This document shows positions 30,128 to 62,493 of a stretch of DNA of 64,000 nucleotides, in pieces. The notes below the pieces were generated by a model. The model had not been told where the DNA came from, made no database searches, and worked only from the letters and a program-made list of their open reading frames with translations. The stretch spans positions 1-64,000 of the forward strand of contig NZ_QYTW02000005.1 in NCBI RefSeq assembly GCF_003605405.2. The letters are read 5' to 3'. The number at the start of each line of letters is the position of its first letter. Positions within the stretch are counted from its first letter, which is position 1. Origin of the DNA: Siminovitchia terrae. GTDB taxonomy: Bacteria; Bacillota; Bacilli; Bacillales; Bacillaceae_C. A program made the translations under genes and the position numbers.

Positions 30128-30315
30128 TTCATTCAGCAGAAGTCCCTCACTTCTGTAAGTGGTGAGATGAATGCCTATTGGTATTCCATTCAGCGGGAGT
30201 TCAAACCCCGGCTGAATAAAGTCAAAGCCTTGGCAGATGCCACAGATTTTTAGAGGAAATTTATCGAGCGGAGCTCGATAAAATCTGGGCGCAAATACGC
30301 CAAGGCGCATTTGAT
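30128..30315 (+). repeat. Structured repeat copy 1 (188 bp)
   Basis: Preceded by TTAAC (30123-30127), ends GCATTTGAT. It contains all four hairpins of the family and lies directly beside a decayed integrase fragment. Confidence 0.9.
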
Positions 30316-30317
30316 TT

Positions 30318-30422
30318 TTCCGGCTGCGGCTTCATCAGCTACTTGTAAAGCATGACCGTATGTATCCATTGTTATTCTGATTTCCGCATGTCTAAGTCTT
30401 TCTGATATATATTTGTTGGATA
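30318..30422 (-). pseudogene. Tyrosine-recombinase C-terminal fragment
   Basis: On this strand the frame reads SNKYISERLRHAEIRITMDT followed by [12 protein letters not shown], the end of a phage integrase with the late His (in LRHAE) and the catalytic Tyr (TYGH). It is open upstream only to a TAA. The repeat copy next to it has removed the rest. It is a second, unrelated integrase remnant in the window. Confidence 0.6.
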
Positions 30423-30533
30423 GTTATCTTTTTTCTTCATTGAGTTCACTTTCTTAAAGGGAATTCAAGTTCTTATTTGGTTTAAAAGAAGTGCAGAAGG
30501 ACTCATATTAGTCAGTATTTATTTCGTAAGGAT

Positions 30534-31076
30534 TTAGTTCCTACAAAAATAATCTCTTTCCAAGATAGCGAAGTAGTATTGGTCGACCCATTTATTGTGC
30601 CAAAATAGTTCTTCTTTGAAAATGGCTTCTCTTTCCATCCCAATGCTCTCCATCAAAACTGCTGAACGTATATTATTTGAATTACACATTCCAAATACTT
30701 TATGTGCCCCTAAGTTTTCAAAAGCAAGTTGCAATAGAAGTTTAGCTGCTTCCCTTCCATAACCTTTTCCTCGAAACTCAGGGAGTATTACAAAACCAAT
30801 TTCCCAGCTCTTTCTAAATTCACTATCGTTCCATATTTGAGCTAAACCAACCGGGGTTTTACTTTTAGCTGCAAATGCACTCACAATAAAATCGTAACTT
30901 TTTGGATCCTCTTCGTTTTTAATTTTTTGTATATATTCTTCATACACTATAGTTTTGTCCGATTCAACATATTCTTCAAAGTACCATAAGTTTTTATCAG
31001 TCTCTATCCGGCAAATAAAATCTAAATCATCAATTGATGCACTTTGTAGCAACACATGCTCGCCAAACAGCTCCAT
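30534..31076 (-). CDS. GNAT acetyltransferase, RimJ/RimL type
   Basis: The 180-residue protein has an acetyltransferase fold: IGFVILPEFRGKGYGREAAK around 93-112 is the CoA-binding motif A, followed by NSNNIRSAVLMESIGM. This matches the RimJ/RimL-like group that modifies protein N-termini or small amines. GGAGG lies before the ATG. The substrate is unknown. Confidence 0.85.
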   Translation of the reverse strand: MELFGEHVLLQSASIDDLDFICRIETDKNLWYFEEYVESDKTIVYEEYIQKIKNEEDPKSYDFIVSAFAAKSKTPVGLAQIWNDSEFRKSWEIGFVILPEFRGKGYGREAAKLLLQLAFENLGAHKVFGMCNSNNIRSAVLMESIGMEREAIFKEELFWHNKWVDQYYFAILERDYFCRN

Positions 31077-31184
31077 TTTGAATCAACCTCCATCTTATCA
31101 ATCAATTGACTATCTCTCTTTTAGCTTCTTTAAAACTTAAAAAACTTCTCATTCCTCCTTTGAAAAAGGAGGGGAATGTTTAAC

Positions 31185-31371
31185 TTCATTCAGCAGAAGT
31201 CTCACTTCTGTAAGAGGTGAGATGAATGCCTATTGGTATTCCATTTAGTGGGGGTTTAAACCCCGGCTGAATAAAGTTAAAGCCTCCGGCGGATGCCACA
31301 GATTTTCAGAGGAAATTTATCGAGCAAAGCTCGATAAAATCTGGGCGCAAATACGCCAAGGCGCATTTGAT
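31185..31371 (+). repeat. Structured repeat copy 2 (187 bp)
   Basis: Preceded by TTAAC (31180-31184). The terminal hairpin loop is AAA instead of GGA (GAGC-AAA-GCTC), a loop-only change. A separate perfect stem (CCTCCTTT/AAAGGAGG) precedes it at 31152-31172. Confidence 0.9.
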
Positions 31372-31685
31372 AAGAAAAGCTTACAAAGGGCAGTATGAAA
31401 TCAATCGACAAAGCGTGCACTTTATTTCTTCGCAAGTTTTTTGATAAACGAATGTTTAATTTCTATAAAAATTTCACCATCTGCATTAAATTGTTTTTCC
31501 TTAATTCATTAGTGAGCTTAATTAGAGTTTACTGTGATAACAGAGATATGCAATAGGTAAATAACCTCTTTTTTCTCAATAAAAATCCTCATTTCTATCA
31601 GACTGTATGTCCAATCAAATTCGACATTTTTCAATATATTAATATCGAAGCCGGCTTTAATAGAGGTAAAGGAGGTGCTAGTAGA
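31372..31685. other. Region between repeat 2 and the Arg/Glu-rich gene
   Basis: I see no supported gene. A minus-strand frame covers much of it but has no ribosome site and a low-complexity N-terminal part antisense to the next gene. Confidence 0.4.
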
Positions 31686-31853
31686 ATGTTCATTTTTGAA
31701 GATGATTTTGTCGGTGGAGAAAGAGAAAGACGGAGAAGACGATTCATTTGTGAATGCCGAGAAGAAAGACGTGAGCGCGAAAGAGAACGTGAGCGTGAGT
31801 TTGAGTGTAAATGTAGAAAGCGCAGACGTAGGCATGAAGAGTTTGATTGGTAG
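31686..31853 (+). CDS. Small Arg/Glu/Cys-rich protein
   Basis: ATG 31686 follows AAAGGAGGTG with good spacing. The 55-residue product is extreme in composition: MFIFEDDFVGG, then runs of Arg and Glu (GERERRRRRF, RERERERE), with CEC and CKC pairs and a final EEFDW. No family is recognised. The strong ribosome site and dedicated terminator make it a real gene. Charge-alternating composition is seen in some spore-coat and condensate-forming proteins. Confidence 0.6.
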   Translation: MFIFEDDFVGGERERRRRRFICECREERREREREREREFECKCRKRRRRHEEFDW

Positions 31854-31860
31854 GACTTAT

Positions 31861-31901
31861 GAGAAATCCCTCGAGGTGATAGTCGGAGGGATTTCTCTTT
31901 T
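31861..31901 (+). terminator. Terminator of the Arg/Glu-rich gene
   Basis: GAGAAATCCCTC pairs perfectly with GAGGGATTTCTC, followed by TTTT. Confidence 0.85.
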
Positions 31902-32028
31902 AGGGCCTGGTTCTAAATGAGGTAATGCTTCAAAAAGCTAGATGTTGAAGTAGCAGAAAAGTTATTTATGTTGGGTCAGAGACTGATGCGGTGATTAAAT
32001 AAGACTAACAGTAAATACTTCCACATTT

Positions 32029-32057
32029 GCTCCTCTCGCAAGAGGGGGCTTTTTTTA
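32029..32057 (+). terminator. Orphan terminator
   Basis: GCTCCTCT-cgca-AGAGGGGGC stem and seven T. The preceding 130 bases hold only a short open remnant (LDVEVAEKLFMLGQRLMR), likely a lost gene. Confidence 0.7.
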
Positions 32058-32187
32058 TCAGTAGAGAGAGGTTTACATTTAGATAAAAGAGAATATAAAT
32101 AGACATCTTTATGTGTAACTAAACGGGGAGTATAATTGAACTAAGATACATTAGAAAGAAAACAAAAATATTATAAGGAGGATTTTT

Positions 32188-32691
32188 ATGTTTCAAACCT
32201 TAGATCATTTTTTTAATTCTTGGGAGTTCGAAGCCAATGCTACACAGAAACTGCTAAATAGTCTAACTGATGAATCACTTGAACAAGAAATAACCTCTGA
32301 AAATTGGACTTTAGGTCGTATTGCATGGCATACTGTTGCCGCCATTCGCATAATTACCTCAAACACAGACTTAACGTTTCATGCCCCAGTTGAAGATTAT
32401 CCTGTTCCTACTTCGGCTCAGTTTATAGCAGATAGCTATTATCAAGCCAGTAATGCATTTGTACAGGCATTAAAAGCCCAATGGACTGACCATACCCTTC
32501 AAGAACGCATCAACTTTATTGGTCAACAAATGCCCAATGGTTCACTTTTGCTATTTTTGATTCAACATCAAAACCACCATCGAGGACAAATGACTGTTCT
32601 TATGAGACAAGCAGGATTAACAGTGCCAGGTATTTATGGTCCAGCAAAAGAGGAATGGGCAAAATTTGGCTTGGAAGCTCCGCAAATGTAA
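32188..32691 (+). CDS. DinB-family protein
   Basis: The 167-residue protein is a DinB/YfiT-type four-helix bundle. Metal ligands are visible as the His in IAWHTV (about 48) and in LIQHQNHHRGQM (about 128-134). DinB proteins are metal-binding and may act as thiol-dependent transferases; the substrate is unknown. TAAGGAGGA precedes ATG 32188. Confidence 0.85.
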   Translation: MFQTLDHFFNSWEFEANATQKLLNSLTDESLEQEITSENWTLGRIAWHTVAAIRIITSNTDLTFHAPVEDYPVPTSAQFIADSYYQASNAFVQALKAQWTDHTLQERINFIGQQMPNGSLLLFLIQHQNHHRGQMTVLMRQAGLTVPGIYGPAKEEWAKFGLEAPQM

Positions 32692-32855
32692 TCAAATTTT
32701 TTATAAAGAAGTTAACCTGTTACAATAAATAAGAGCATGTTTTGATCAATCTTTTTTCAGAACACGCTCTTTCCTTTTGTTCATTTAACAATGTTATTAA
32801 CATTAATTTGATTAAATTTTATTCCAAACCTATACCTTTCAACTGCTTGTTTAAC

Positions 32856-33038
32856 TTCATTCAGCAGAAGTCTCCCACTTCTGTAAGTGGTGAGATGAAT
32901 GTCTACTGTATTCAGTGGGGGTTCAAACCCCGGCTGAATAAAGTCAAAGCCTTAGGCGGATGCCACAGATTTTTAGAGGAAATTTATCGAGCGGAGCTCG
33001 ATAAAATCTGGGCGCAAATACACCAAGGCGCATTTGAT
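32856..33038 (+). repeat. Structured repeat copy 3 (183 bp)
   Basis: Preceded by TTAAC (32851-32855). A few bases are missing in the linker after the first hairpin; all stems remain. Confidence 0.9.
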
Positions 33039-33052
33039 TAATGTGGCTTATA

Positions 33053-33277
33053 CTATTTTTTCTTATTTAGCAGAATGAGTCCGCATACTAATCCCAAAAT
33101 AGATGCCACAATACCGAATCTAAGGACAGTTATTATATATTCACCCATCGGTAAATAATTAGTTAGGGTGGCCCCATCTCCGATATCCTCTACTTCTGCA
33201 TATTTTACAAATAAAATCGCTGCCCCTATTCCGATAAAAAAACCATAAATCGCACTTTTCCTAAGTGAGCTCTCCAC
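33053..33277 (-). CDS. Small two-helix membrane protein
   Basis: GTG 33277 behind GGGAGG gives 74 residues with membrane segments at about 9-25 and 50-69 (FGIVASILGLVCGLILL) and a basic end. No family is recognised. Its stop lies 15 bases from repeat copy 3. Confidence 0.5.
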   Translation of the reverse strand: MESSLRKSAIYGFFIGIGAAILFVKYAEVEDIGDGATLTNYLPMGEYIITVLRFGIVASILGLVCGLILLNKKK

Positions 33278-33413
33278 TAATTTGTCCTCCCAATCTAAAC
33301 CTAAATCATCTATTTCTACAAATGATGACCAATTTCCTCTTTAATTGACGAACATTTCCTGCGAAGCGAAAAAAGCCAGCGCTGATTGGTTTTTACTAGA
33401 GGAGCATTAGTGT

Positions 33414-33698
33414 TTAAAAAATGGTTCCAATTTCAAGTTTGTCACTTTGGTTTTGGAAAATGTCCTTTAGTGTTAATCCGTTTATCTTTGCTTTTTCTGC
33501 AAATTCTTCAGGATCTTCAATATAATGGTTCAAATTTTCACCTTCTTCATTTAATATAACTCTTCCTTCTTCATAGTTAGGAATAAAATATTCTTTCTCA
33601 TCATAAAAAAATTCAATTTCTCTTCCTTGTTTTAAGTAATATATTAACCTGCTATAATCCATTTTGTTTTCTGGTGAAGCATTTTCATCATTGCTCAT
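33414..33698 (-). CDS. Small acidic cytoplasmic protein
   Basis: A 94-residue protein at ATG 33698 behind AAGGTGG. MDYSRLIYYLKQGREIEFFY and YIEDPEEFAEKAKINGLTLK suggest a conserved Bacillus hypothetical family, some members of which lie next to toxins as immunity proteins. I see no toxin here. The function is unknown. Confidence 0.55.
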   Translation of the reverse strand: MSNDENASPENKMDYSRLIYYLKQGREIEFFYDEKEYFIPNYEEGRVILNEEGENLNHYIEDPEEFAEKAKINGLTLKDIFQNQSDKLEIGTIF

Positions 33699-33909
33699 TG
33701 TAAGCCACCTTCTTTACTTCTTAGTTTGTTTAGGCGTATTGTAAAGAATACGATTAATGTTTCGTGAAAAAATGTTCTTGTGACAGAACTCTAGTTGGAT
33801 ATATACGTTCAAATTATGTAGAATGAAACGAAAGAAAGGGCTGCAACCATAGAAGTCTATATTTTTTTAAAAAATAGGTGTAACCCATTAAAATAAATAA
33901 GAGGTGCAA

Positions 33910-34104
33910 ATGAATAACATTATTAAGATATTGGCTACTGTTACCATAGTTATTTCTTTGCTACTTTGGCTACCTAATATTGTGTTTCAGGAAGCATCAT
34001 CTTTATGGCTCTATACGTTTGTTTTTTCTGGAATTGGTATTATTTTGTTAACAATGATTAAATCAAAAATATTGATTATAGGGAACACCATAACATTTTT
34101 GTAA
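33910..34104 (+). CDS. Small two-helix membrane protein
   Basis: ATG 33910 follows AGAGGTG closely. The 64-residue product has membrane segments ILATVTIVISLLLWLPNIVF and YTFVFSGIGIILLTM. No family is recognised. Confidence 0.5.
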   Translation: MNNIIKILATVTIVISLLLWLPNIVFQEASSLWLYTFVFSGIGIILLTMIKSKILIIGNTITFL

Positions 34105-34339
34105 TGTTTGTTGGCTATCTTTTCGAATTTGTTACGCAACTTATGTAAAAAATTCCATTAGTTCAACATCATCGACTTCAGCATCGAGTGAGTTTTTAGT
34201 TAGCGTGTGTCGCTGCTGTTACAGTTAAAACACTGCCCCTATTGAACCAAAATAAAGTAAATACTAAACATGTAATTAAATATTATTAATTATGTATGGT
34301 AACTTTCATATTTATTTCTAGAGGGAGCGTGGAAGAATA

Positions 34340-34514
34340 GTGTTGGTAAAGATAAAGGAGCGTTTCCCATTAATGGGGACTTCGTTTTTAGGTATAGTAT
34401 CTTTGTTTAATTTGTTTTCAGGTATAGGTTTTAGTAGCTTCTATTAGTTTAGGTTTATTTTTGTTGGTATTGTTTTTATATTTTTTAACTAAAAATATAA
34501 ATGTGGAAGATTAA
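34340..34514 (+). pseudogene. Frameshifted small membrane protein
   Basis: A GTG at 34340 opens MLVKIKERFPLMGTSFLG and a first helix, then stops at TAG. A shift near 34425 restores VLVASISLGLFLLVLFLYFL and a polar end NVED. Together they form a two-helix protein like the neighbours on either side. The ribosome site is distant, so confidence is low. Confidence 0.4.
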
Positions 34515-34572
34515 GATAGGGATTGTATGCCTTTAATAAATGTACAACCTAAACTTAAAATGAGGTGGAGCA

Positions 34573-34770
34573 ATGGGGTTTTGGTATTTATTATTACTAC
34601 TTATCGGCATCGTTCTTTTAATAGTGGGGGCAACGACAAAAGGGGTATCTCGTTCAGTTAAAATCGTCATATTACTTTTTGTGTTTGGAATTCTGTTCAT
34701 TTTTATTTCACTCATACTAATGCTGCCAGGAAGTTCTTACGTCCTAGATGAACTATTAAAAATAAGATAA
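34573..34770 (+). CDS. Small two-helix membrane protein
   Basis: ATG 34573 behind GAGGTGGAG. The 65-residue product has two long hydrophobic segments (LLLLLIGIVLLIVGATT and IVILLFVFGILFIFISLILM). A terminator follows. The function is unknown. Confidence 0.6.
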   Translation: MGFWYLLLLLIGIVLLIVGATTKGVSRSVKIVILLFVFGILFIFISLILMLPGSSYVLDELLKIR

Positions 34771-34783
34771 CTTTAAACAAGAA

Positions 34784-34815
34784 AAGGCCGCTCACTTGAT
34801 CGGCCTTGGTTTTTT
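34784..34815. terminator. Bidirectional terminator
   Basis: AAGGCCG pairs with CGGCCTT, followed by GGTTTTTT; convergent genes on both sides. Confidence 0.8.
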
Positions 34816-34816
34816 A

Positions 34817-35269
34817 TTATAGAAAATTTTGATGCAATGTAAAATTAAGCATGATGATATTAACACATATATTCAATTCTAAGTTTCTTTCGATTGGTAT
34901 ATTTTCTTTGAAATTTAATAATTCTTTTTCGCTTACATCCAATAATTTGGAAATATTCATTAAAGATAAATCAAATTCTTGTGCTAAAGTGTCTAGTATG
35001 ATTTGAGCTCTTTCTTTTGCTTCAATTCCTGAGAGTCCGTAATGTAACATGGCTGATTTATGCTGGATATTTTCTTTTTCATGATCGGTTAAATCTATTT
35101 TCTCTTGATGGATGATATTGTTTATTTTTGTCAAAGGCATGTTCAATAACTTGGATAATTGTTTGAGGTTTAAATCAAATTTGCTTGTTAAGCTCTGTAT
35201 TTCTTTTTTATAAACATTGATGCTTTCCCCTGATATTTCTATATGTTTAATTTCTTTTTGACTTGTCAT
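34817..35269 (-). CDS. Tandem HTH-like protein
   Basis: The 150-residue protein has two similar units, FDLNLKQLSKLLNMPLTKIN near 31 and FDLSLMNISKLLDVSEKELL near 99, each with helix-turn-helix spacing. It resembles a Bacillus family of small HTH proteins with no known target. AGGTGA precedes the ATG. Confidence 0.65.
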   Translation of the reverse strand: MTSQKEIKHIEISGESINVYKKEIQSLTSKFDLNLKQLSKLLNMPLTKINNIIHQEKIDLTDHEKENIQHKSAMLHYGLSGIEAKERAQIILDTLAQEFDLSLMNISKLLDVSEKELLNFKENIPIERNLELNICVNIIMLNFTLHQNFL

Positions 35270-35316
35270 TTTTAATTCACCTGTTTAACTTAGTTGTCAT
35301 TTTTGATATAAGCTAG

Positions 35317-35340
35317 GCTCGGCATGACCGAGCTTTATTT
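35317..35340 (+). terminator. Hairpin between two minus-strand genes
   Basis: GCTCGG-catga-CCGAGC with T-rich sequence on the plus-strand side. Confidence 0.5.
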
Positions 35341-35473
35341 AATTTGTTATAATACTCCATATATCTTTGAGAAAAAGGAAAACCACATGGAATAACGTAT
35401 AAAATAATAGTGTAAGTCCTGCCAATTTTAGCACTTCTTTTGTACTTAAATTCCAGGGGGATTTATCGGTAAT
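35339..35473 (-). CDS. 44-residue membrane protein with an apparent ATT start
   Basis: On this strand AAGGAGG is followed seven bases later by ATT (35471-35473), not ATG. The frame then reads TDKSPWNLSTKEVLKLAGLT and one membrane helix LLFYTLFHVVFLFL to a stop. The conserved look and perfectly placed ribosome site suggest a real gene. Either ATT is used as a rare start or the ATG was recently lost. Confidence 0.45.
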   Translation of the reverse strand: MTDKSPWNLSTKEVLKLAGLTLLFYTLFHVVFLFLKDIWSIITN

Positions 35474-35590
35474 GTAAATACCTCCTTCTACAAAATTTTA
35501 TAGATGTTAAATAATACTTCTACACTTGGATTGTAATTCCTTTAATAGGCCCACGTAGGTCTTTATCTTAATGATGGTGGAGGTGGGAAA

Positions 35591-36352
35591 GTGGGATTTA
35601 CTCAAATGACAAAAAGTACAATTGAAACTGAACACATCTGCTGTGCTTTGGGAGCAAAACAATATGAGGATGCAGTAAGTGAAAAGAAGAGATGGTTGGC
35701 AGAACGAATGGATGAAGGCTTAGTATTCTATCGTTTAGATGAACGTGCAAAAGTATTTATAGAATACTTACCTGCCCAAATGGCGTGGGTTCCTATTCAA
35801 GCACCCAATTATATGTATATCAATTGTTTATGGGTTTCTGGGAGATATAAAAATAACGGGCATGCAAAGCAGCTGTTGGATTATTGTAAAGGAGATGCAA
35901 TCAATCGTGGTATGGACGGGATTGTCCATATAGTAGGAAAGAAAAAATACCCGTATTTAAGTGATAAACGTTTCTTTGAACATATGGGGTTTGAGTTAAT
36001 CGACCAAGCAGAACCATATTTTCAATTGATGGCATTGAAGTGGAATAAACAGGCTGTTGACCCGTCCTTTAAAAAAAATGTAGAGGCTTCTTGCAGGAAT
36101 GAAGGTATTTCCATTTATTACACAGCTCAATGTCCGTTTGCTGTTGGCATATTGGAAGACCTAAGAAAAGTGGCAGAAAGCAAAAATGCCCCCTTCCATA
36201 CTTATAGAATAACAACTAAAGAAGAAGCACAAAACGCACCGACGATATGGACAACTTTTGGCATGTTCTATAATGGAAAATTCATTACACACGAAATGAT
36301 GAGTTCAAATAAGTTTGAGAAATTATTAACGAAGCTACTATCAGCGGAATGA
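35591..36352 (+). CDS. yoaP: YoaP-like GNAT acetyltransferase
   Basis: GTG 35591 behind GGTGGAGGTGGG starts a 253-residue protein. Residues 1-155 are a GNAT domain (MYINCLWVSGRYKNNGHAKQ is motif A). Residues from about 170 form the YoaP C-terminal domain, with IYYTAQCPFAVGILEDLRK resembling a thioredoxin-like segment. This two-domain layout is that of B. subtilis YoaP, whose substrate is unknown. Confidence 0.8.
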   Translation: MGFTQMTKSTIETEHICCALGAKQYEDAVSEKKRWLAERMDEGLVFYRLDERAKVFIEYLPAQMAWVPIQAPNYMYINCLWVSGRYKNNGHAKQLLDYCKGDAINRGMDGIVHIVGKKKYPYLSDKRFFEHMGFELIDQAEPYFQLMALKWNKQAVDPSFKKNVEASCRNEGISIYYTAQCPFAVGILEDLRKVAESKNAPFHTYRITTKEEAQNAPTIWTTFGMFYNGKFITHEMMSSNKFEKLLTKLLSAE

Positions 36353-36379
36353 TATTCTTTTTTTTCTTATGCATTTAAC

Positions 36380-36566
36380 TTGATTCAGCAGAAGTCTCCC
36401 CCTTCTATAAGTGGTGAGATGAATGCCTATTGGTATCCATTCAGTGGGGTTCAAACCCCGGCTGAATAAAGTTAAAGCCTCCGGCGGATGCCACAGATTT
36501 TCAGAGGGAATTTATCGAGCGAAGCTCGATAAAATCTGGGCGCAAATACGCCAAGGCGCATTTGAT
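36380..36566 (+). repeat. Structured repeat copy 4 (187 bp)
   Basis: Preceded by TTAAC (36375-36379). Single-base deletions break any shared reading frame, but all hairpins are kept. Confidence 0.9.
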
Positions 36567-36599
36567 TTCTAGTGTGCATTCAATGAAATGAAGTCCTCA

Positions 36600-36638
36600 A
36601 CTTGTAGAGATTAGGTGTTTTTTCTCTACAAGTTTTTA
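36600..36638 (+). terminator. Terminator behind repeat copy 4
   Basis: CTTGTAGAGA pairs with TCTCTACAAG, followed by TTTTTATTTT; possibly the displaced terminator of the yoaP gene. Confidence 0.7.
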
Positions 36639-36905
36639 TTTTGTTTTCTTATAAGCTATTCATCTGTTTTTTCTCTAAAAGAAAAAGATTTCCATTTCAC
36701 CCAAAGGCTGTTCCATTTAAGAATGAAAGCCAAGTATATTTTTTGGATAATACCTTGTGAAGCGGAGAAGTCAATCATGCTATTTTATTATCTAACCTTC
36801 AGGCACTTTAGGCAAACTCATTTTTTACACATGGAATGGCTTCATCAAACCAAATCGTTGACAGAATCGCTGGCGGTATGTATATTATTAATTTATTAAA
36901 TCAAC
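36639..36905 (+). other. Decayed sequence before tcyP
   Basis: A stop-interrupted frame (for example FFTHGMASSNQIVDRIAGGM) suggests an old gene remnant, unidentified. I see no intact gene here. Confidence 0.3.
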
Positions 36906-36910
36906 TAAAT

Positions 36911-49590: not shown

Positions 49591-51612
49591 ATGAAAGAAA
49601 AAAAGAAAAAACTGACAACCTTTCGAATGAATCTTCTGTTTTTTATCGCTTTTTTACTTTTTTGTGTGCTGATTTTTCGACTGGGGTATCTTCAAATCGT
49701 GCACGGTGAGCAATTCAATAATGAAATGAATAAATCGAATGTAATCGTTGTAAAAAAGCCTGTTCCAAGAGGATTGATCTATGATAGCAAACATCGCCTG
49801 CTAGTGGGCAATAAAGGGATAAAAGCCATTACATATTTTCGCTTGAATAATACTAAGCCGGATTCTATGTTGAAGGTAGCCGAGGAGCTGACGAAGTATA
49901 TTTCCATAGATACTTCCGAGCTGAAAAATCGTGATTTACAAGATTATTTTGCTGCAAAGTATCAGGAGAGGATCAATAAAAGGTTAAGTGGAAGAGAAAA
50001 GCAATTACAAGGAGGGGAATTATATAAGGCCCAAATCAAAAAGGTAAGCGAAAAGGATATAGCTTCTTTGAGCCAAAAAGAAAAAAGCGTTGCTATGCTG
50101 TATAAGAAAATGAATAGCACTTCTGAATTTGATACAGTTATGATAAAAAATAAGCATGTTACAGAAGAAGAAGTGGCCAAGGTCAGTGAACATTTGCAGG
50201 ATTTACCGGGAATTGACATTGCGATGGATTGGGAAAGAGATTACAAGGAAGGGGCCATGTTAAGAAGTGTTTTTGGTTCAGTAACTACCGAGAAAATGGG
50301 TTTGCCCAGTGATCAAGAAAAACTCCTACTGGCAAAAGGCTATGCGCTGAACGATCGAGTTGGAAAAAGCTATTTAGAAAAAGGGTATGAAGACATTTTG
50401 AAAGGGACAAAGCAACAATATGAGTTAACAATAAACAATGGAAAACTAGAAAAATCGAACCTTAAAACAGAAGGAAAAAAAGGAGATAATCTCGTACTAA
50501 CGATAGATATTGATTTTCAAAAAAAGTTGGATGAAATTGCAACGAACGCATTGACTCAACGGAAAGGGAAATTGGCAGATCGCCTTTATATTAGTGCTAT
50601 TAATCCGCAAAATGGTGAAATTCTTGGTATGTCCGGGAAAAAGATCAATATGTCGACAGGTGAAATAGAAGATGATACGCTGGGTGTTTTTAATACACAA
50701 TATACAATGGGCTCAAGTATAAAAGCAGCTACCGTTCTTGCAGGATACATGGACGAAGTCATTTCCCTTGATGACAATGTAATGATGGATAAACCACTTA
50801 AATTTGCAGAAACCAAATCGAAAAGTTCATGGTTTAATCGAAATGGGAGTATGGCATTAAATGATACTACAGCATTAGAAGTCTCTTCAAATTCCTATAT
50901 GATGCAATTGGCAATGCGAATGGGTGGAAAATATCAGTACACTCCTGGGGAAACCTTGAGGATGGATAGTGATGCAGTATTTAAAAAACTGAGATATTAT
51001 TATTCCCAATTTGGTCTTGGCGTCCCGACTAGAATTGATATTCCAGGTGAGTCTGCAGGTTTAAAAGGCTTGGAAAGTAATCCTGGCCTTGCACTTGATC
51101 TTGCTTTCGGCCAATTTGATACATACACAACATTGCAATTAGCTCAATATATTTCGACTATAGCGAATGGCGGCAATCGAATTGCCCCGAGGATTGTAAA
51201 AGAAATTAGAGGCACTAATGAGCGGGGGGAATTAGATGAGCTGAAAAAAGATTTTTCCCCAAAAGTATTAAATCATTTAGAGATTGATGATCAATATATT
51301 AATAGAGTCAAAATGGGGCTATATAATGTTGTCCACGGCAGCAATCAATACGGGACGGGAAAAAAGCTTGCAAGTTCACCCTATGATATTTCAGGAAAAA
51401 CGGGAACGGCTCAAGCATTTTACAGCGGACCTATCGAATCGGCAAATATGACAGCTGTATGGAACTTAACCTTTGTCGGTTATGCACCATCAGAAAATCC
51501 GCAAATCGCTATTTCTGTTGCTCTCCCTTTTATGGATACTGATAAAGAAGATGCTATATTAGATATTCCCAAAAAGATATTTGATGCTTATTTTGAGCTC
51601 GAATCTAATTAA
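49591..51612 (+). CDS. Class B penicillin-binding protein, PbpA/PbpH type
   Basis: ATG 49591 lies eight bases after GAAGGTG. The 673-residue protein has one N-terminal anchor (LLFFIAFLLFCVLIFRLGYL), a PBP dimer domain and a transpeptidase domain with MGSSIK, SSNSY and SGKTGTAQ. It resembles the elongation-type PBPs PbpA/PbpH of Bacillus. Being behind a BlaI operator, it is probably a beta-lactam-inducible spare elongation transpeptidase. Its stop codon TAA lies inside the TTAAC target of repeat copy 6. Confidence 0.85.
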   Translation: MKEKKKKLTTFRMNLLFFIAFLLFCVLIFRLGYLQIVHGEQFNNEMNKSNVIVVKKPVPRGLIYDSKHRLLVGNKGIKAITYFRLNNTKPDSMLKVAEELTKYISIDTSELKNRDLQDYFAAKYQERINKRLSGREKQLQGGELYKAQIKKVSEKDIASLSQKEKSVAMLYKKMNSTSEFDTVMIKNKHVTEEEVAKVSEHLQDLPGIDIAMDWERDYKEGAMLRSVFGSVTTEKMGLPSDQEKLLLAKGYALNDRVGKSYLEKGYEDILKGTKQQYELTINNGKLEKSNLKTEGKKGDNLVLTIDIDFQKKLDEIATNALTQRKGKLADRLYISAINPQNGEILGMSGKKINMSTGEIEDDTLGVFNTQYTMGSSIKAATVLAGYMDEVISLDDNVMMDKPLKFAETKSKSSWFNRNGSMALNDTTALEVSSNSYMMQLAMRMGGKYQYTPGETLRMDSDAVFKKLRYYYSQFGLGVPTRIDIPGESAGLKGLESNPGLALDLAFGQFDTYTTLQLAQYISTIANGGNRIAPRIVKEIRGTNERGELDELKKDFSPKVLNHLEIDDQYINRVKMGLYNVVHGSNQYGTGKKLASSPYDISGKTGTAQAFYSGPIESANMTAVWNLTFVGYAPSENPQIAISVALPFMDTDKEDAILDIPKKIFDAYFELESN

Positions 51613-55705: not shown

Positions 55706-55732
55706 ATTTTATAGCTAAATTTAATTTTGGTA

Positions 55733-56048
55733 TTGACAACTTCAATATCTCGATATATGATTGCTTATAATCAAATAACAACAAGCAAAGATTGGAAATA
55801 GTAAAAGGACAATAAGCTTTTCAGAGAGCCGATGGCTGGTGAGAATCGGTAGTTATTCCCTTTGAACTCCTCCAAGAGCTGCTCCCTGAACAAACTTCAG
55901 TAGGGGATGCCGGGTTTCTGCCGTTAAAAGGATAGGTGGTGATAGCCGCCGAAAATGAGTGGGTTATTTATGTTTTAATTTAACCAATTAGAGTGGTACC
56001 GCGAGCACAGCCTCGTCTCTATATTTTTATAGAGACGGGGCTTTTTTA
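55733..56048 (+). promoter_or_regulatory. T-box riboswitch (probably leucine) with promoter
   Basis: TTGACA (55733) and TATGAT (55756) are 17 bases apart. Stem I follows (GGCTGGTGAGAATCGG and a GAACTC segment whose CTC would be a Leu specifier). The T-box sequence TTAGAGTGGTACCGCG is at 55988-56003, and the terminator GCCTCGTCTCT...AGAGACGGGGC-T6 at 56010-56047. Uncharged tRNA binding would favour the antiterminator and leuA expression. The specifier assignment is tentative. Confidence 0.8.
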
Positions 56049-56070
56049 TATTAAAAAGGAGTGTATTGAA

Positions 56071-57615
56071 ATGGCGAGAAAAATTTGGGTATTTGATACG
56101 ACTTTAAGAGATGGAGAGCAGGTTCCAGGTGCAAAGCTGAACCAATATGAAAAGCTGGAAGTGGCACAGCAGCTTAAAAAGCTTGGGGTTGATATGATTG
56201 AAGCGGGCTTTCCTTCATCCTCCACTGGCGATTTCAATGCAGTGAAAGAAATTGCCACTAAAGTGGGAAATACAGATGATATTATCATTACTGCGTTGGC
56301 AAGAGCAGTAAAATCTGATATTGATGCGGTTTATAACAGTGTAAAAGATGCTAATAATCCGCTCATCCATATAGTTTTGGGTACTTCAGATATTCATGTG
56401 GAAAAGAAATTCGGAAAATCGAAAGACCAGATAATGGATATTGGTGTGGAAGCAGTGAAATATGCAAAAAGCTTATTGCCTGACGTTCAGTACTCAACAG
56501 AGGATGCATCCCGCTCCGATTTTGAGTACTTATGGAAAACGATTGAATCAGTTGTTAAGGCTGGGGCTACCATTATTAATGTTCCCGATACGGTCGGGTA
56601 TGCTGAGCCGGAAGAATTTGGTGAACTGATTTTTAAACTAAATGACCGTTTGAAGAATTTGGATGATACTGTTCTTTTAAGTGTCCATTGTCATAATGAC
56701 CTTGGCATGGCAACAGCCAACACTTTAGCTGCAATCAAAAACGGGGCGGATAAAGTGGAGTGTACGATAAATGGAATTGGCGAACGCGCCGGTAATGCAG
56801 CACTTGAAGAAGTCGTAATGTCCATGAATACTCGTTCATCTATCTATCAGGCTTACACGAACATCAATACTAAGGAGATTATGAATACCTCTAAGCTGGT
56901 AAGCAGTTTTATGGGGCTTGATGTTCAAGTGAATAAAGCTATCACGGGGGACAATGCCTTCGCTCATTCCTCAGGTATCCACCAAGACGGATTGCTGAAG
57001 TCGAGAGATGCTTACGAAATCATCAGCCCGCTTGAAGTCGGACTGGACGATATGGAGCTTGTATTAACAGCACGGTCTGGCCGTCATGCAGTTAAAAATG
57101 CTCTTAACAAATTAGGATTTAACGAATTCACGGATATACAATTTGAAGAGATTTTTGCAGACTTCCTTGAAATGGCTGATAAGAAAAAAGAGGTTTATAA
57201 CCATGATTTATATATCATTGTTGAGAACTATTTCAAAGAATCTCATATTAGCGATAATTTCTTTGAATTGGTGGATTTACAAGTGATCAGTAACACAAGC
57301 TTTCCGTCAGCCAGCGTGAAATTAAAAAAGGAAGGCCAAATATTGGAGGGAAGCGCAGTTGGCTCGGGCCCAATCGATGCTCTATATTCCGCTATTATGG
57401 AGATCAGCCAGCTTGACATTCAACTGCAAGAATACAACATCAGCAGTGTCTCAAGAGGGAAAGAGGCAGTGGGGAAAGTTAAAATTCAAGTGGAATTCAG
57501 AGGTGAGAAGTATACTGCTAAAGCAACGGACACTGATATTATGAAGGCAAGTGCACTTGCATTTATCAATGCAATAAATAACATTGTTGTGGAGCATTTA
57601 GTCCCGGCAAACTAA
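56071..57615 (+). CDS. leuA: 2-isopropylmalate synthase
   Basis: ATG 56071 behind AAAAAGGAG. The 514-residue protein has the HMGL-like TIM barrel ([24 protein letters not shown] with metal ligands; [21 protein letters not shown]). A C-terminal LeuA regulatory domain runs from about 380. It condenses acetyl-CoA with 2-oxoisovalerate, the first step of leucine synthesis. It stands alone, not in an ilv-leu operon, behind a T-box. Confidence 0.9.
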
Positions 57616-57691
57616 CATCAAATCAGATTGGTAGTGGGTAGGAGACAACCTATAAAATATTGAATTAGTCATATCCACTAAAAAACGTGGC

Positions 57692-57731
57692 AAGACCATC
57701 TAATTTAGATAGTTTAGATGGTCTTTTTTTT
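57692..57731 (+). terminator. leuA terminator
   Basis: AAGACCATCTAA pairs with TTAGATGGTCTT, followed by T8. Confidence 0.85.
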
Positions 57732-57754
57732 ATGCACATAACCAATAGGTTAGC

Positions 57755-57821
57755 TTGACGAATTAGCTTTGGAATACTATAATCCAATTGATCGGTACTA
57801 AAAATAAAAAAATAGTACCGA
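57755..57821 (+). promoter_or_regulatory. Promoter and TetR-type operator of the efflux operon
   Basis: TTGACG (57755) and TATAAT (57778) are 17 bases apart. The inverted repeat TCGGTACTA...TAGTACCGA (57792-57821) lies just downstream, well placed for autorepression. Confidence 0.6.
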
Positions 57822-57844
57822 GGTGGAGGCGAGGAATTTATTCC

Positions 57845-58405
57845 GTGAAAAAGCAATTACAAGAAACCGTACTTGAACTCATTGTACAAAAAGGGCTCAA
57901 GTTTACAATCGATGATATCGCTGCAAAACAAGGGATCAGCAAAAGGACCGTTTACGAACACTTTGATTCGAAACAACATTTGATCGAGACAATTGTAGAT
58001 GATGCGATTGAAGAAGTGAAACAACGCGAACAAGAGATTTTTCACAAAAAAGAGTTAAGCTATAAACAAAAACTGACTGCTGTGTTATCGATTGTTCCAA
58101 GTGGATTGAGCTTTGGGGATACTGTGCTGCTCGAGCAAATGAAACGGTTTGCCCCCAATGAATGGGTCAAAATTGATGAACTTATCCAGAATGGATGGCA
58201 AACAGTCCAGAAAGTAATTGAACGCGGTATTAAAAATGGAGAATTTCGTCCGCTTCATGTTCCCAGCGTAATTCAATTGTTGCGTGGAGCATCAATGGCC
58301 ATTTTCGATCCCGACTTTCATACTCACAATGTGAATTCCTTGGAAAAAAACGTAGCAACAATGGTGGATGTCATCATGCATGGACTGATCAATGAGGAGG
58401 AGTGA
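57845..58405 (+). CDS. yvaF: TetR-family regulator, YvaF-like
   Basis: GTG 57845 behind GAGG starts 186 residues with a TetR HTH (IDDIAAKQGISKRTVYEHFD, about 21-40) and a helical ligand domain. It precedes an SMR pump gene and a DUF5360 gene, the order of B. subtilis yvaF-yvaE-yvaD. Its stop overlaps the SMR start (TGATG). Confidence 0.8.
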   Translation: MKKQLQETVLELIVQKGLKFTIDDIAAKQGISKRTVYEHFDSKQHLIETIVDDAIEEVKQREQEIFHKKELSYKQKLTAVLSIVPSGLSFGDTVLLEQMKRFAPNEWVKIDELIQNGWQTVQKVIERGIKNGEFRPLHVPSVIQLLRGASMAIFDPDFHTHNVNSLEKNVATMVDVIMHGLINEEE

Positions 58406-58779
58406 TGGAAATGGCATGGATATATTTAACAGCAGCGATCTTGTTCGAAGTAGTTGGAACCGTTTCGATGAAACTGTCACATGGATTTACAAAGGCAATT
58501 CCCTCGGTACTCATGATTATATTTTATCTGCTTGCCTTCACTTGTTTAAATTTCACCTTAAAAACGATTCCGGTCAGTGTCGCTTATGCTATCTGGTCAG
58601 GGGTTGGGACGGCGGCCATTGCGGTTATCGGATATATAGCTTTCAAAGAGACTTTAACAGTCATGAAGGTTACCGCTATTATTTTAATCATTGTCGGGGT
58701 CGCCCTCCTAAATATTAGCTCGGAATCAAGCGAGACAGACAAGACTCGTTTGAATGCGCAGCATGAGATGGAAGCATAA
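58405..58779 (+). CDS. yvaE: SMR-family multidrug efflux protein, YvaE-like
   Basis: A 124-residue, four-helix SMR protein with the essential Glu in AILFEVVGTVSMKLSHGF and the conserved AYAIWSGVGTAAIAVIGY. It exports cationic compounds by proton exchange. A polar tail of about 18 residues is slightly longer than usual. AGGAGGAG precedes the ATG. Confidence 0.9.
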   Translation: MEMAWIYLTAAILFEVVGTVSMKLSHGFTKAIPSVLMIIFYLLAFTCLNFTLKTIPVSVAYAIWSGVGTAAIAVIGYIAFKETLTVMKVTAIILIIVGVALLNISSESSETDKTRLNAQHEMEA

Positions 58780-58780
58780 T

Positions 58781-59191
58781 ATGAAAAGCATTCAAAAAGA
58801 GCCATCAATGCGAGTTCTAAAGTGGTTTTTTCTTGTTGTGGATTTTTCTTTTATATTGTATTTCAGTGCTACTGCCATTGGAATTATTCCAATTGAATAC
58901 GCCTATTCAGATTATACAAATCCGATTTTGGTTACTTGGAACTGGTCTTTTTTGCCGCTTGACATAGTTATTTCGCTTACTGGTTTAAGTTCGATTTATT
59001 TGCATCGAAAGGGTCGTGCTGAATGGAAATCAATTGCTTTGCTTTCACTCGTTCTAACATTCTGTTCTGGGTTGATGGCCATATCATTTTGGGCGATTCG
59101 CCTGGAATTTGACGCTGTATGGTGGATTCCTAATTTAGTGCTGATGCTCTATCCTTTGTTTTTCATTCCTAAGTTTATGAAAGTAGGGTGA
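58781..59191 (+). CDS. yvaD: DUF5360 membrane protein, YvaD-like
   Basis: A 136-residue protein with four membrane helices (WFFLVVDFSFILYFSATAIG; VWWIPNLVLMLYPLFFIP). It starts one base after the SMR stop and closes the yvaFED-like operon. The function is unknown. Confidence 0.75.
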   Translation: MKSIQKEPSMRVLKWFFLVVDFSFILYFSATAIGIIPIEYAYSDYTNPILVTWNWSFLPLDIVISLTGLSSIYLHRKGRAEWKSIALLSLVLTFCSGLMAISFWAIRLEFDAVWWIPNLVLMLYPLFFIPKFMKVG

Positions 59192-59264
59192 AAGTGGAAC
59201 ACTCATTTTCACTATGTTTAAAAGTTCTCATAATAAAGAAGGATGGCCATGAAGGGATATTAAC

Positions 59265-59453
59265 TTCATTCAGCAGAAGTCTCCCACTTCTGTAAGTGGT
59301 GAGATGAATGCCTATTGGTATTCCATTCAGTAGGGGTTCAAACCCCGGCTGAATAAAGTTAAAGCCTCCGGCGGATGCCTCAGATTTTCAGAGGAAATTG
59401 ATCGAGCGGAGCTCGATAAAATCTGGGCGCAAATACGCCAAGGCGCATTTGAT
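59265..59453 (+). repeat. Structured repeat copy 7 (189 bp)
   Basis: Preceded by TTAAC (59260-59264). All hairpins are present; the remnant of a membrane protein lies directly downstream. Confidence 0.9.
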
Positions 59454-59497
59454 CATTCCGGGGCCACTCGTCGCTTTGTTTTTCCGTAATTAAGTGA

Positions 59498-59632
59498 GTG
59501 CAAATCGTTACCTTTATAGTCTGGATGTCATTTACATATGTCCCTGCATTGATTATACTTGCGTTGATTAAAAAGCGAAGACGAAAGGCGAACTGTAAAA
59601 ATATCCTGAAATCAGCAACGGGTTCTGTATAA
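59498..59632 (+). pseudogene. C-terminal remnant of a membrane protein
   Basis: A 44-codon frame (QIVTFIVWMSFTYVPALIIL followed by a basic KKRRRKA end) looks like the last helix of a membrane protein whose front is missing. It has no ribosome site. Confidence 0.4.
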
Positions 59633-59655
59633 TGAACAAAAAAGGGGGTAGCCAG

Positions 59656-60126
59656 ATGATTTTGGTGAGTTCTTGCTTGGCAGGTTTGGAAGTTAGATAT
59701 GATGGGAGACATAGTCTGCATGACAAAATAAAAAAGTTGGTGGGGGAAAATAAAGCAATCACGATATGCCCTGAACTGAGCGGGGGATTTTCCACCCCAA
59801 GGGAGCCAGCGGAAATAACAGGTGGAGATGGGTATGATGTTCTTGATGGGAAGGCGAAGGTAATAGATAGGTCAGGTAGAGAGGTCACGGATTTGTACAT
59901 GAAAGGTGCTCACGCGACGCTAAAACTAGCAAAGGAAATCAAGGCATCACTTGTAGTATTGAAGGAGAACAGCCCATCCTGCGGCAGCTCCATGATTTAC
60001 GACGGTGAATTTAATGGCAATAAGATTGCCGGCGACGGCGTTACGTCCGCCTTACTGAAAAGAAATGGCTTTCGGGTTATTTCGGAAGAACAGTTGGATG
60101 AAAAAACGATTGAATCCTTCCTTTAA
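59656..60126 (+). CDS. DUF523 family protein
   Basis: ATG 59656 behind GGGGGTAG. The 156-residue protein shows the DUF523 marks ILVSSCLAGLEVRYDGRHS, ICPELSGGFSTPREPAEI and LKENSPSCGSSMIYDGEF, with conserved cysteines. The biochemical role is unknown; related domains bind Fe-S clusters or nucleotides. Confidence 0.85.
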   Translation: MILVSSCLAGLEVRYDGRHSLHDKIKKLVGENKAITICPELSGGFSTPREPAEITGGDGYDVLDGKAKVIDRSGREVTDLYMKGAHATLKLAKEIKASLVVLKENSPSCGSSMIYDGEFNGNKIAGDGVTSALLKRNGFRVISEEQLDEKTIESFL

Positions 60127-60159
60127 CTTAAGATTGGTGGCACTGTTACGGCTCATAGA

Positions 60160-60187
60160 CCAATAGGAGGGGGATCCCCCCTATTGG
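60160..60187. terminator. Inverted repeat between convergent genes
   Basis: CCAATAGG-AGGGGG and CCCCCC-TATTGG form a very stable stem with a two-base loop; no T run, probably bidirectional. Confidence 0.5.
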
Positions 60188-60200
60188 GCAGTCCGGCTGA

Positions 60201-60641
60201 CTATTGACCCTGATCACCAAATGCAAATAGAAGATCTAACTCACATACTAAATCTCCATCAACAGTAGCGATTCCTTTTCCTTTGCCGATAGCTCCTTTT
60301 AATCGAGTAATTTCAACTTCCATCCGAAGCTGATCCCCTGGTTTTACCTGCTTTTTAAAGCGACATTTATCTATTCCCGCTAACAAACCCAGGCGTCCAC
60401 GGTTGCCTTCTTGGGATAACATGGCAACCGCACTTACTTGAGCCAATGCTTCGATAATCAACACCCCAGGCATTACTGGATCGTCAGGAAAATGACCATT
60501 AAAAAAACGCTCATTTACAGTCACATTTTTAATCCCGACAGCCCTTTTGCCTTCCTCAAGCTCTATAATCTTATCCACTAAAAGAAATGGATGGCGATGT
60601 TTAATCGTGTCTTTAATTTCCTGAACATCAAACATCTTCAA
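60201..60641 (-). CDS. fabZ: 3-hydroxyacyl-ACP dehydratase FabZ
   Basis: The 146-residue hot-dog-fold enzyme has catalytic His and Glu in [20 protein letters not shown]. It dehydrates 3-hydroxyacyl-ACP in fatty acid elongation. Its start lies inside the 3' end of the fabH-like gene, so the two are coupled. This pairing with FabH, apart from a main fab cluster, suggests a second or specialised pathway copy. Confidence 0.9.
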
Positions 60642-61626
60642 CGTCCCATTTCAAAATCACCCCGGCATGTGTCAGTCCTCCGCCAAACCCATAAGCTAAC
60701 AGGGTGTCGCCGCTTTTTAATTTTCCTTCGTCTATGCCTAACTGCATTGCTAACGGGATCGAAACCGATGAAGTATTTCCCAAATATTCAACGCTTGTCA
60801 ATGTTTTTTCAAGTGAAATCTCTGATTTTTCACAAATGGATTCGATCATACGCAAATTAGCACTGTGCGGAATAAACCAGTCAATGTCATCCTTCTTTAA
60901 CCCAGCTTTGTGCAGTAATTCATTTATACCTGACGGAAGCGTGCGAGAAGCCCATTTATATACTTCTCTTCCGTTTTGTACCAGCATTCCAGACGGATTC
61001 AAAGGCTGCCCCTGCATTGTAGTGGATAGATTTGTGCTATATACATGGCTGCCTCCTTCCCCGTAGGTTCCCATGTGGCTGGCGATAAAGCCTGGCATTT
61101 CATCATCCCTTTCCACTATAATAGCAGCGGCTCCGTCACCAAATAAAATACAAGTTGTCCGGTCTGTGTAATCCGTGATTTTGGACAAGGTTTCGGCAGC
61201 AACAAATAAAATTTTTCGATGAAGTCCAGACGTAATCAATCCGTTGGCTACGTGCAATCCATAAGTGAAACCAGCACAAGCTGAATTCAGGTCCATTGCA
61301 CCAGTCTGTTTTATCTGAAAATGTTTTTGGATTTGGCTTGCTACATTCGGAAATGTGTAGTCGGGTGTAGAGGTGGCTACAATGATGCAATCTACATCAG
61401 AAACATCTTTTTTGTATCGTTTGATTAAGTTCTCTACCGCTCGGAGAGCCAATGTTGAAGAAAATTCGTTTTCAGCGGCAATCCTTCTTTCTTTCATTCC
61501 GGTTCTTTGGACGATCCATTCGTTGTTAGTATCGACCATTTTCTCTAAATCTTCATTTGTCAATCTTTTTTCCGGGACATAGGTTCCAAATGCTGTTATT
61601 CTGGCTTTGGATTGGATGTTAGTCAT
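60628..61626 (-). CDS. fabH: 3-oxoacyl-ACP synthase III (FabH, YhfB-like)
   Basis: ATG 61626 follows AAAGGAGCGA. The 332-residue thiolase-fold enzyme has the Cys-His-Asn triad in [16 protein letters not shown] and YLGNTSS. It starts fatty acid synthesis by condensing acyl-CoA with malonyl-ACP and sets straight or branched primers. It overlaps fabZ by 14 bases. Confidence 0.9.
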
Positions 61627-61645
61627 TAAATCGCTCCTTTTTTTA

Positions 61646-61675
61646 TCATAAGGTACTATCACTTAGTGCTAATTA
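61646..61675 (-). promoter_or_regulatory. Degenerate FapR-like site before fabH
   Basis: On the minus strand TTAGCACTAAGTGATAGTAC carries TTAG and GTACC half-sites; a clearer site precedes the neighbouring plsC-like gene. Confidence 0.35.
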
Positions 61676-61704
61676 AAGTGTATGAAAAACCCATGGCAGC
61701 TTTG

Positions 61705-62277
61705 TTATTTTGTTTTAAGGGAATTTATTTTTTCTGATAAGAGATCGGTATATGCTGCCAGCTCAGATTTATTGTTAGTATTTACATAGAAAGGTTCTCC
61801 AAAAATGATGTTGGCTTTTCTTGCTCTCCATAACTCTTTTATATTTGCCGGCCCTTCATATGCGGCCGGAATAATCGGAACCTTTGCTAAATTCGCAATG
61901 GTGACTGCTCCCCTTTTTAATGAAACTTCTTCCGCCGTTCTTGTCCCGCCCGGAAAAATGCCCACAACTTCACCTGATTTCAGTAGCTTAATAGGTGTCT
62001 TTATGCTGCTTGGTGAAGGATTATCACGGTTGACAGGAAAAGCATTAATCTTAGTAAGAAAAAAAGAAGACAACTTATTTGTGAACAGTTCTTGCTTCGC
62101 CATAAAATGAATCGGGCGCGGCGTACAAATTCCCAGAATGACAACATCTAACCAGCCTTTATGTGTGCATGTTAAAATAAAACCGCCTTCTGATGGAAGT
62201 ACATGTTTGTTACTGACGTCCACTTTACCGAGGGTACGCAAAATGATGGTGGCCAATACTAGAACAAATTTGTACAT
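61705..62277 (-). CDS. PlsC-family acyltransferase
   Basis: ATG 62277 behind GGAGTGA. The 190-residue protein has a membrane-like N-terminus and the acyltransferase blocks THKGWLDVVIL (HX4D) and GIFPGGTRTAEE, a variant of FPEGTR with Gly for Glu, then VPIIPAAYEGP. It probably acylates lysophosphatidic acid or a related lipid. A FapR-like operator supports a role in membrane lipid synthesis. Confidence 0.8.
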   Translation of the reverse strand: MYKFVLVLATIILRTLGKVDVSNKHVLPSEGGFILTCTHKGWLDVVILGICTPRPIHFMAKQELFTNKLSSFFLTKINAFPVNRDNPSPSSIKTPIKLLKSGEVVGIFPGGTRTAEEVSLKRGAVTIANLAKVPIIPAAYEGPANIKELWRARKANIIFGEPFYVNTNNKSELAAYTDLLSEKINSLKTK

Positions 62278-62303
62278 GAAATCACTCCAAATTACTATCA
62301 AGT

Positions 62304-62322
62304 TATAGTACCTGGTGCTAAT
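62304..62322 (-). promoter_or_regulatory. FapR operator before the plsC-like gene
   Basis: TATAGTACCTGGTGCTAAT matches the FapR consensus TTAGTACCTRNTACTAA closely. FapR represses fatty acid and phospholipid genes in Bacillus until malonyl-CoA rises. Confidence 0.65.
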
Positions 62323-62367
62323 TATAAAGAAAATGAAAATAATATTCAACTAGCTTTCACTTTTAAC

Positions 62368-62493
62368 TTCATTCAGCAGAAGTCTCCCACTTTTGTAAGT
62401 GGTGAGATGAATGCATATTGTTATTCCATTCAGTTGGGGTTCAAACCTCAGCTGAATAAAATCTGGGCGCAAATACGCCAAGGCGCATTTGAT
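62368..62493 (+). repeat. Structured repeat copy 8, internally deleted (126 bp)
   Basis: Preceded by TTAAC (62363-62367). About 62 bases are missing between two ATAAA sequences, leaving both ends intact. Confidence 0.9.

Follow-up and report, generated by a model that had tools for sequence, protein, structure and literature searches.

The DNA stretch analyzed here, termed the window, comprises the first 64,000 nucleotides (nt) of contig NZ_QYTW02000005.1 of Siminovitchia terrae (assembly GCF_003605405.2) and harbors eight copies of a structured repeat element of up to 190 nt which codes for nothing. A scan of these 64 kb with the last 24 nt of the element, allowing for up to five substitutions, recovered the eight copies on the plus strand and none on the minus strand, and 20 mononucleotide shuffles of the window yielded no match. 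Thus, all eight same-strand copies listed in the first-pass annotation, which had been made from the sequence alone, were found again. TTAA is located directly 5' of all eight copies, as TTTAA in six and as ATTAA in two, and all eight terminate in TTTGAT at the 3' end. The annotation had placed each copy behind TTAAC; however, a tandem head-to-tail pair at locus L015 has the junction GCATTTGAT|CTTCATTC without a TTAA in between, and therefore TTAA was assigned to the target site and the C to the element as its first base, one base before the earlier boundary. The copies and the main features of copy 7 are:

30127..30315, plus strand: copy 1, 189 nt, after TTTAA
31184..31371, plus strand: copy 2, 188 nt, after TTTAA
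32855..33038, plus strand: copy 3, 184 nt, after TTTAA
36379..36566, plus strand: copy 4, 188 nt, after TTTAA
39208..39397, plus strand: copy 5, 190 nt, after TTTAA
51613..51791, plus strand: copy 6, 179 nt, after ATTAA; the stop codon of the open reading frame (ORF) ending at 51612 comes from the TTAA
59264..59453, plus strand: copy 7, 190 nt, full length, after ATTAA
62367..62493, plus strand: copy 8, 127 nt, with an internal deletion, after TTTAA
59260..59263, plus strand: TTAA left of copy 7, the target site, outside the element, as indicated by empty sites and the tandem junction
59281..59303, plus strand: left subterminal hairpin CTCCCACTTC..AAGTGGTGAG of copy 7, resembling that on the left of IS605-type TnpA-bearing elements
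59359..59363, plus strand: TTAAA in copy 7, complementary to TTTAA and a candidate guide, directly 5' of the mini-hairpin GCC-TCC-GGC (59364-59372)
59430..59451, plus strand: right-end hairpin CAAATACGCCAAGGCGCATTTG of copy 7; the element terminus lies 2 nt further

From 5' to 3', the element is composed of the C, about 16 nt, the CTCCCACTTC..AAGTGGTGAG hairpin, a variable segment, TTAAA and the mini-hairpin, followed by a long hairpin tipped by GAGC-GCTC, the right-end hairpin CAAATACGCCAAGGCGCATTTG and a final AT; its ends follow the patterns TTTAA|C..AGAAGTCTCCC on the left and CAAATACGCC..TTTGAT on the right. The stems and subterminal hairpins described earlier proved to be real. Folded as single-stranded DNA, one copy from the S. 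terrae genome reached -41.6 kcal/mol, compared to -21.3 +/- 3.1 for shuffled sequences (z -6.6), and its opposite strand folded equally well (z -7.1). For the 3' domain, 62 sequences from other genera were aligned after 9 of 71 distinct domains had been excluded for unusual length. As RNAalifold left the middle of the domain unpaired, contrary to expectation, a structure with helices named by hand was counted instead. These helices were paired at 96.6%, and 44 cells were changed on both sides, compared to 10.4 +/- 2.8 upon shuffling and at most 7 when the helices were slid. Of these cells, 34 fall into three adjacent pairs and may represent one inherited change or a few events, and two of the five measures of the test gave less clear values, with 16 and with 41 of 500 shuffles equally high. 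The last 24 nt showed little variation in other genera, which is in part due to ascertainment, since it was this end that served to find the copies; such low variation would be as expected for a protein-binding end. Mean identity to the consensus was 0.972 over 56 copies, a value biased upward as the loci represent best BLAST matches. N bases occur within repeat copies at L036 (1194-1474) and L021 (3300-3574); the draft assembly looks patched at repeats, and copy-level detail is unsure at these two loci.

A scan of the flanks of 187 two-ended copies for empty sites returned eight rows, two of which compared the L015 tandem with itself and six of which compared different loci. Three of the latter were empty sites with a gap of 0, namely L184 versus L215 (GTTAA|TTTT), L217 versus L176 (GTTTAA|CGA), and L094 versus L068; TTAA was present prior to insertion in the first two and TTAGA instead in the third. 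The remaining rows were L090 versus L126, with a gap of -1, and two poor comparisons (gaps 5 and 15). At the three empty sites, insertion 3' of (T)TTAA was precise and occurred without duplication or loss, in line with the absence of target duplication and the insertion behind a short site claimed in the first-pass annotation, which had also proposed to look for sites joined directly to the flank. The consensus of the left flank, determined on 99 parsed of 115 copies of the S. terrae genome, is TTTAA. A candidate circular junction, in which the right end is joined to the left end, was matched exactly by one tandem copy, that of L015. Ten copies were examined in genome G005, and for seven of these both flanks were present in the S. 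terrae sequence, where six sites were filled and one was empty; at the six shared sites the paired copies were 0.89-0.96 identical. This comparison indicates that some copies are old and that their number has since risen in the lineage of the window or fallen in the other. In Schinkia azotoformans, an element copy is situated within a flavin mononucleotide (FMN) riboswitch aptamer (L090 7572-7824, minus strand; 253 nt versus a model of 138 nt), and the FMN riboswitch at L126 is without a copy.

The orientation of the copies followed replication. The leading strand was set for each contig by GC skew, which had a single sign in 20 of 20 bins of each of two 400-kb stretches and was positive in three of four bins of the window, and genes were predicted with a simple ORF caller at a minimum length of 90 aa. 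In the two stretches and the window, 74 of 77 copies were oriented with the leading strand, so that the single orientation noted in the window reflects the replication strand. Among the 76 copies with two neighboring ORFs, this was true for 47 of 49 copies between two leading-strand genes, for 20 of 21 in mixed settings, and also for all six copies between two lagging-strand genes. Intergenic TTTAA sites were distributed nearly equally (571 on the leading and 615 on the lagging strand; p 4e-20 for the bias). Because copies between two opposed genes still follow the leading strand, transcription fails to account for the orientation, whereas insertion into the lagging-strand template does.

The left end was compared to a sample of 20 regions of other genomes, 16 of which contained a Y1-like frame, 13 with a common type of left end and three (L367, L368, L378) with another. 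Nine of the 13 TnpA-bearing loci displayed TTTAA|C, 10 or 11 nt, AGAAGT or similar, and a hairpin of the CTCCC type at no more than 330 nt from the Y1 frame; in L369 a TTTAA occurs elsewhere in the locus, and it is missing from L361, L365 and L366. A profile built on the 13 loci produced 59 matches in 800 kb of the S. terrae genome, 47 of which were positioned within the 69 repeat copies of these 800 kb, and three weak matches on the reversed sequence. Three strong matches were located outside the repeat copies, two being followed by a frame which we take to be TnpB-like and one being gene-less. A gene-less IS605-type unit is present in L160-L179 joined (C1, around 177343, minus strand; left-end E 6e-17, right end GGTTCAA); next to the repeat family, this unit is a non-autonomous IS605 derivative of the ordinary kind.

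Pairing between the flank and an internal guide was determined on copies from other genera. An earlier version of this test (53 of 135 copies) had mixed registers and was replaced; in the present one, 90 of 129 copies were parsed and 39 dropped, a small number of the 90 seem to be misparsed, and copies related to each other do not count as independent. Over all 90 copies, the four bases beside the boundary formed 294 of 360 possible pairs, compared to 259.3 +/- 4.5 expected, and none of 5000 shuffles was as high. The same was observed for the 23 copies in which both the flank and the internal site deviate from TTAA (58 of 92 pairs versus 37.6 +/- 3.7; 0 of 5000 as high). Matching flank and internal sequences are TATTA/TAATA in L089, TTTCA/TGAAA in L285, TATAA/TTATA in L272 and L292, and TTTTA/TAAAA in L301, and a further altered pair is AGTAG/CTGCT. 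This covariation can be read either as guided target choice, as in IS608, or as correction of an imperfect hairpin after insertion.

The empty sites, the strand bias, the subterminal hairpins, the head-to-tail junction and the left end support the non-autonomous element proposed in the first-pass annotation, and they make it probable that this gene-less element of about 190 nt moves as single-stranded DNA like IS200/IS605 elements, with the enzyme provided in trans. A Y1 HUH transposase would recognize the hairpins, the top strand would be cut out of the lagging-strand template in circular form, with the right end TTTGAT joined to the left end CTTCATTC, and the circle would be pasted 3' of TTTAA at the replication fork. 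Membership in the IS200/IS605 family is not established, because no autonomous element examined has the right end of the repeat.

A number of observations weigh against this interpretation. Left-end matches of single repeat copies were weak (E 0.06 upward in 800 kb) and, as the copies share descent, the 47 matches amount to one match repeated; in addition, short forms without the left hairpin exist in other genera. The right end matched no IS605-type right end among the elements examined, and a unit of left end, gene and right end was absent from the 18 core sites, out of 264 in 2.26 Mb, that have no right end within 330 nt. None of the four Y1 loci of the S. terrae genome was bracketed by repeats, L049 having a single copy on one side, and no Y1 match was obtained in 4 of 20 element-bearing genomes despite 37, 11, 50 and 26 right ends. 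Three results speak against a guide: the excess of target pairs was weak in the S. terrae genome (99 of 115 copies parsed; 333 pairs versus 328.1, with 192 of 5000 shuffles as high) and absent in other species of the genus (899 of 5000 as high), and 42 of 46 S. terrae copies with a non-TTAA internal site kept a TTAA flank.

A full-length TnpA/TnpB element sharing both ends, for which the first-pass annotation had proposed to search, was not found in the 2.26 Mb covered, which come from many genomes, overlap in part and include about 1 Mb of the 5.3 Mb S. terrae genome (about a fifth), with core sites up to 400 nt from a locus end left unjudged. The annotation had further considered a relation to TnpB guide-RNA ends, for which no support was obtained. 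The DNA downstream of six TnpB loci of the S. terrae genome, part of 15, ended in ...GGTTCAA or ...TAGTTCAA in four cases and differently in two (L056, L058), and none of the six displayed the TTTGAT hairpin. The four Y1 loci of this genome consist of two open frames, presumably of IS200 type and REP type, and two frames with stops. The IS200-type TnpA of L048 was rejected as partner, as T-rich sequence precedes its left ends and its hairpins are not those of the repeat, with a weak resemblance of the right end remaining. The REP-type transposase of L050 (1306-1872) was rejected as well, since the GGGGTCWGACCCC palindromes by which it is flanked differ from those of the element. The gene has orthologues at 91-92% in the other two element-rich genomes of the genus, and the GGGGTCWGACCCC pattern had 18 matches in 864 kb (up to one mismatch, both strands, so that a palindrome may count twice). 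Similar palindromes flank the REP-type genes of L350 and L245, and GGGGACAGGCACC lies upstream of that of L349; at none of these four REP-type loci was the gene flanked by the element's own palindrome, as in a REP/RAYT arrangement. The partner enzyme may have been lost, or may be located in the four fifths of the S. terrae genome outside the part covered.

The S. terrae genome contains 540 right ends with up to three mismatches (302 on the plus and 238 on the minus strand; no match for the reversed pattern) and 509 core motifs with up to two mismatches, and at 190 nt each these 540 copies would occupy roughly 2% of its 5.3 Mb. Counts across genomes are based on the right end and miss copies in which it has diverged. 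By this pattern, the element was present in 10 of 149 genomes of relatives, and six genomes of the genus had 538, 124, 45, 12, 0 and 0 right ends. A 20-mer of the right end occurred at no fewer than 61 loci in named genomes, and Fredinandcohnia, Schinkia, Amphibacillus, Siminovitchia, Peribacillus, Ureibacillus, Lysinibacillus, Alkalihalobacillus and Bacillus are the genera named among the matches listed. Sixteen genomes picked for having the element harbored 2 to 113 copies each. The family is therefore patchy across Bacillales genera, with a high but very uneven copy number. The element also occurs in a record labeled Arthrobacter beigongshangensis REN13 (L127), for which contamination or mislabeling seems likelier than transfer. 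Among 72,556 plasmid records the 190-nt query produced one partial match of 43 nt, on a Clostridiaceae plasmid, and it had no match among 50,697 phage records; the 36-nt right end matched six plasmid and eight phage records in a chance-like manner. Two matches were obtained in viral contigs, one of which is a true copy situated where a contig ends (L128), the other being read as chance (L129). A short form lacking the 5' part follows an ORF ending in KAMA*, which we assume to be atpD, in two genomes (L203 around 1354, L091 around 2733), and in genome G093 this short form is the sole right-end match.

As for other parts of the window, positions 13176-18191 carry a prophage-like ORF with a tape-measure-protein domain, and no element copy lies left of 30127. 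A T-box leader (55779-56023) is positioned immediately 5' of a LeuA-type gene with HMGL-like and LeuA_dimer domains.

The first-pass annotation had named a match to a known RNA family as a point to be checked. In Rfam, no gathering-score match to the window copies was found, Bacillaceae-1 included, and one copy of the S. terrae genome searched at E values up to 5 gave a single sub-threshold match outside the copy. In several other genera, Bacillaceae-1 RNA (RF01690) is located within the element, either in the long hairpin, at its tip, or 5' of the mini-hairpin. Among 30 loci, the best matches from 12 genomes, it was read as nested in relatives of the element in 15 (nine flagged by script, six by eye), with doubtful nesting at L341, and L074 and L079 apparently represent one site without and with the module, as judged by eye. 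RF01690 also occurs in other structured-looking settings (L320, L322, L323, L325, L327, L329, L330, L332, L334, L335, L337, L338, L342, L345), for example beside GCATTAACTGGCAGTAAG..CTGCCAGTAAAAGCCCG (by eye). Bacillaceae-1 RNA thus looks like a module common to several Bacillales repeat families, and the family described here would be distinguished by its unusual right end and by its modular interior, which holds this RNA in relatives. A more far-reaching proposal, which we regard as doubtful, is that of a self-retargeting DNA-guided element in which four to five inner bases pair with the target, altered guides hit matching altered sites, and the same scaffold carries Bacillaceae-1 RNA, a module that can be exchanged, from one Bacillales genome to another.

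Among the alternatives to single-stranded DNA transposition, a structured RNA, either an intergenic regulator or a determinant of mRNA stability, could be kept by selection while its copies spread via recombination rather than transposition. The conserved and partly covarying helices and the Bacillaceae-1 RNA nested in relatives agree with such a role, as do the 9 of 31 C1 copies that begin no more than 9 nt from where a same-strand ORF ends and several relatives positioned directly 5' of a Shine-Dalgarno-like sequence (by eye). However, all six copies located between two opposed genes kept the replication-strand orientation, the empty sites are exact, and copy number ranges from 538 to 0 within one genus, rendering this explanation unlikely. 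Another single-strand HUH system such as rolling-circle transposition of the IS91/Helitron type, which likewise inserts without duplication and possesses a 3' hairpin, would account for the lack of duplication, the conserved 3' hairpin, the head-to-tail dimer and the four genomes devoid of a Y1 match; the resemblance of the left end to IS605-type left ends with an identical TTTAA|C site makes us consider it improbable. RNA-mediated insertion at forks, starting from a short structured transcript and comparable to a short interspersed nuclear element (SINE) or a degenerate mobile intron, would fit the strong 3' end, the variable or shortened 5' domain (in copies found by their 3' end) and the bias towards the lagging-strand template, but with two precise ends and a head-to-tail junction of DNA type there is very little to recommend it. 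An ordinary miniature inverted-repeat transposable element (MITE) such as bcr1 or ERIC, mobilized by a DDE transposase, matches in size, copy number and intergenic position, and is extremely improbable given the strand bias, the absence of inverted terminal repeats (by eye) and the empty sites without target duplication.

The family provides many natural insertions for testing target pairing and replication bias in single-strand transposition, and mobile structured repeats offer a physical context for the unexplained Bacillaceae-1 RNA family. Some copies are positioned directly behind stop codons, and that of one relative lies inside the FMN riboswitch mentioned above. The element was not matched in open-licence literature searched in titles and abstracts with short sequence words and the terms bcr1, PATE and non-autonomous IS605, which is no proof of novelty.

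Among known systems, a close likeness exists to IS605-type TnpA-bearing elements of Bacillales (L359, L360, L362-L364, L370-L373), which share with the repeat the TTTAA|C target, the spacer of 10-11 nt, AGAAGT or similar, and the CTCCC-type hairpin, with GATGAAT next in most. These elements carry a Y1 gene and in some cases tnpB (L359, L365), whereas the repeat is non-coding, and the right ends examined below tnpB finish in TTCAC or TTCAA while that of the repeat finishes in TTTGAT with a different hairpin. PATEs, non-autonomous IS200/IS605 derivatives, are likewise gene-less, with palindromic ends and no duplication; the repeat differs from them in that no two-ended parent was found, in the Bacillaceae-1 modules of its relatives and in its hundreds of copies. 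The IS200-type right end of L048 consists of GCAAA, a hairpin and TTTTGAT and that of the repeat of GCAAA, a different hairpin and TTTGAT; the L048 left ends, mostly beginning with TGGTTTAG after T-rich sequence, are unlike those of the repeat. Bacillaceae-1 RNA (RF01690; PMC2864571) corresponds to an inner module of relatives of the element and not to the window copies. According to the abstract of PMC6006769, IS608 and ISDra2 target the lagging-strand template, and excerpts of PMC5934647 describe that IS608 inserts 3' of a fixed short site kept in the left flank, with a guide 5' of a hairpin base-pairing with the target. In these excerpts the IS608 site is TTAC, while the candidate guide of the repeat, TTAAA, lies within a long stem and has its pairing evidence in copies from other genera.

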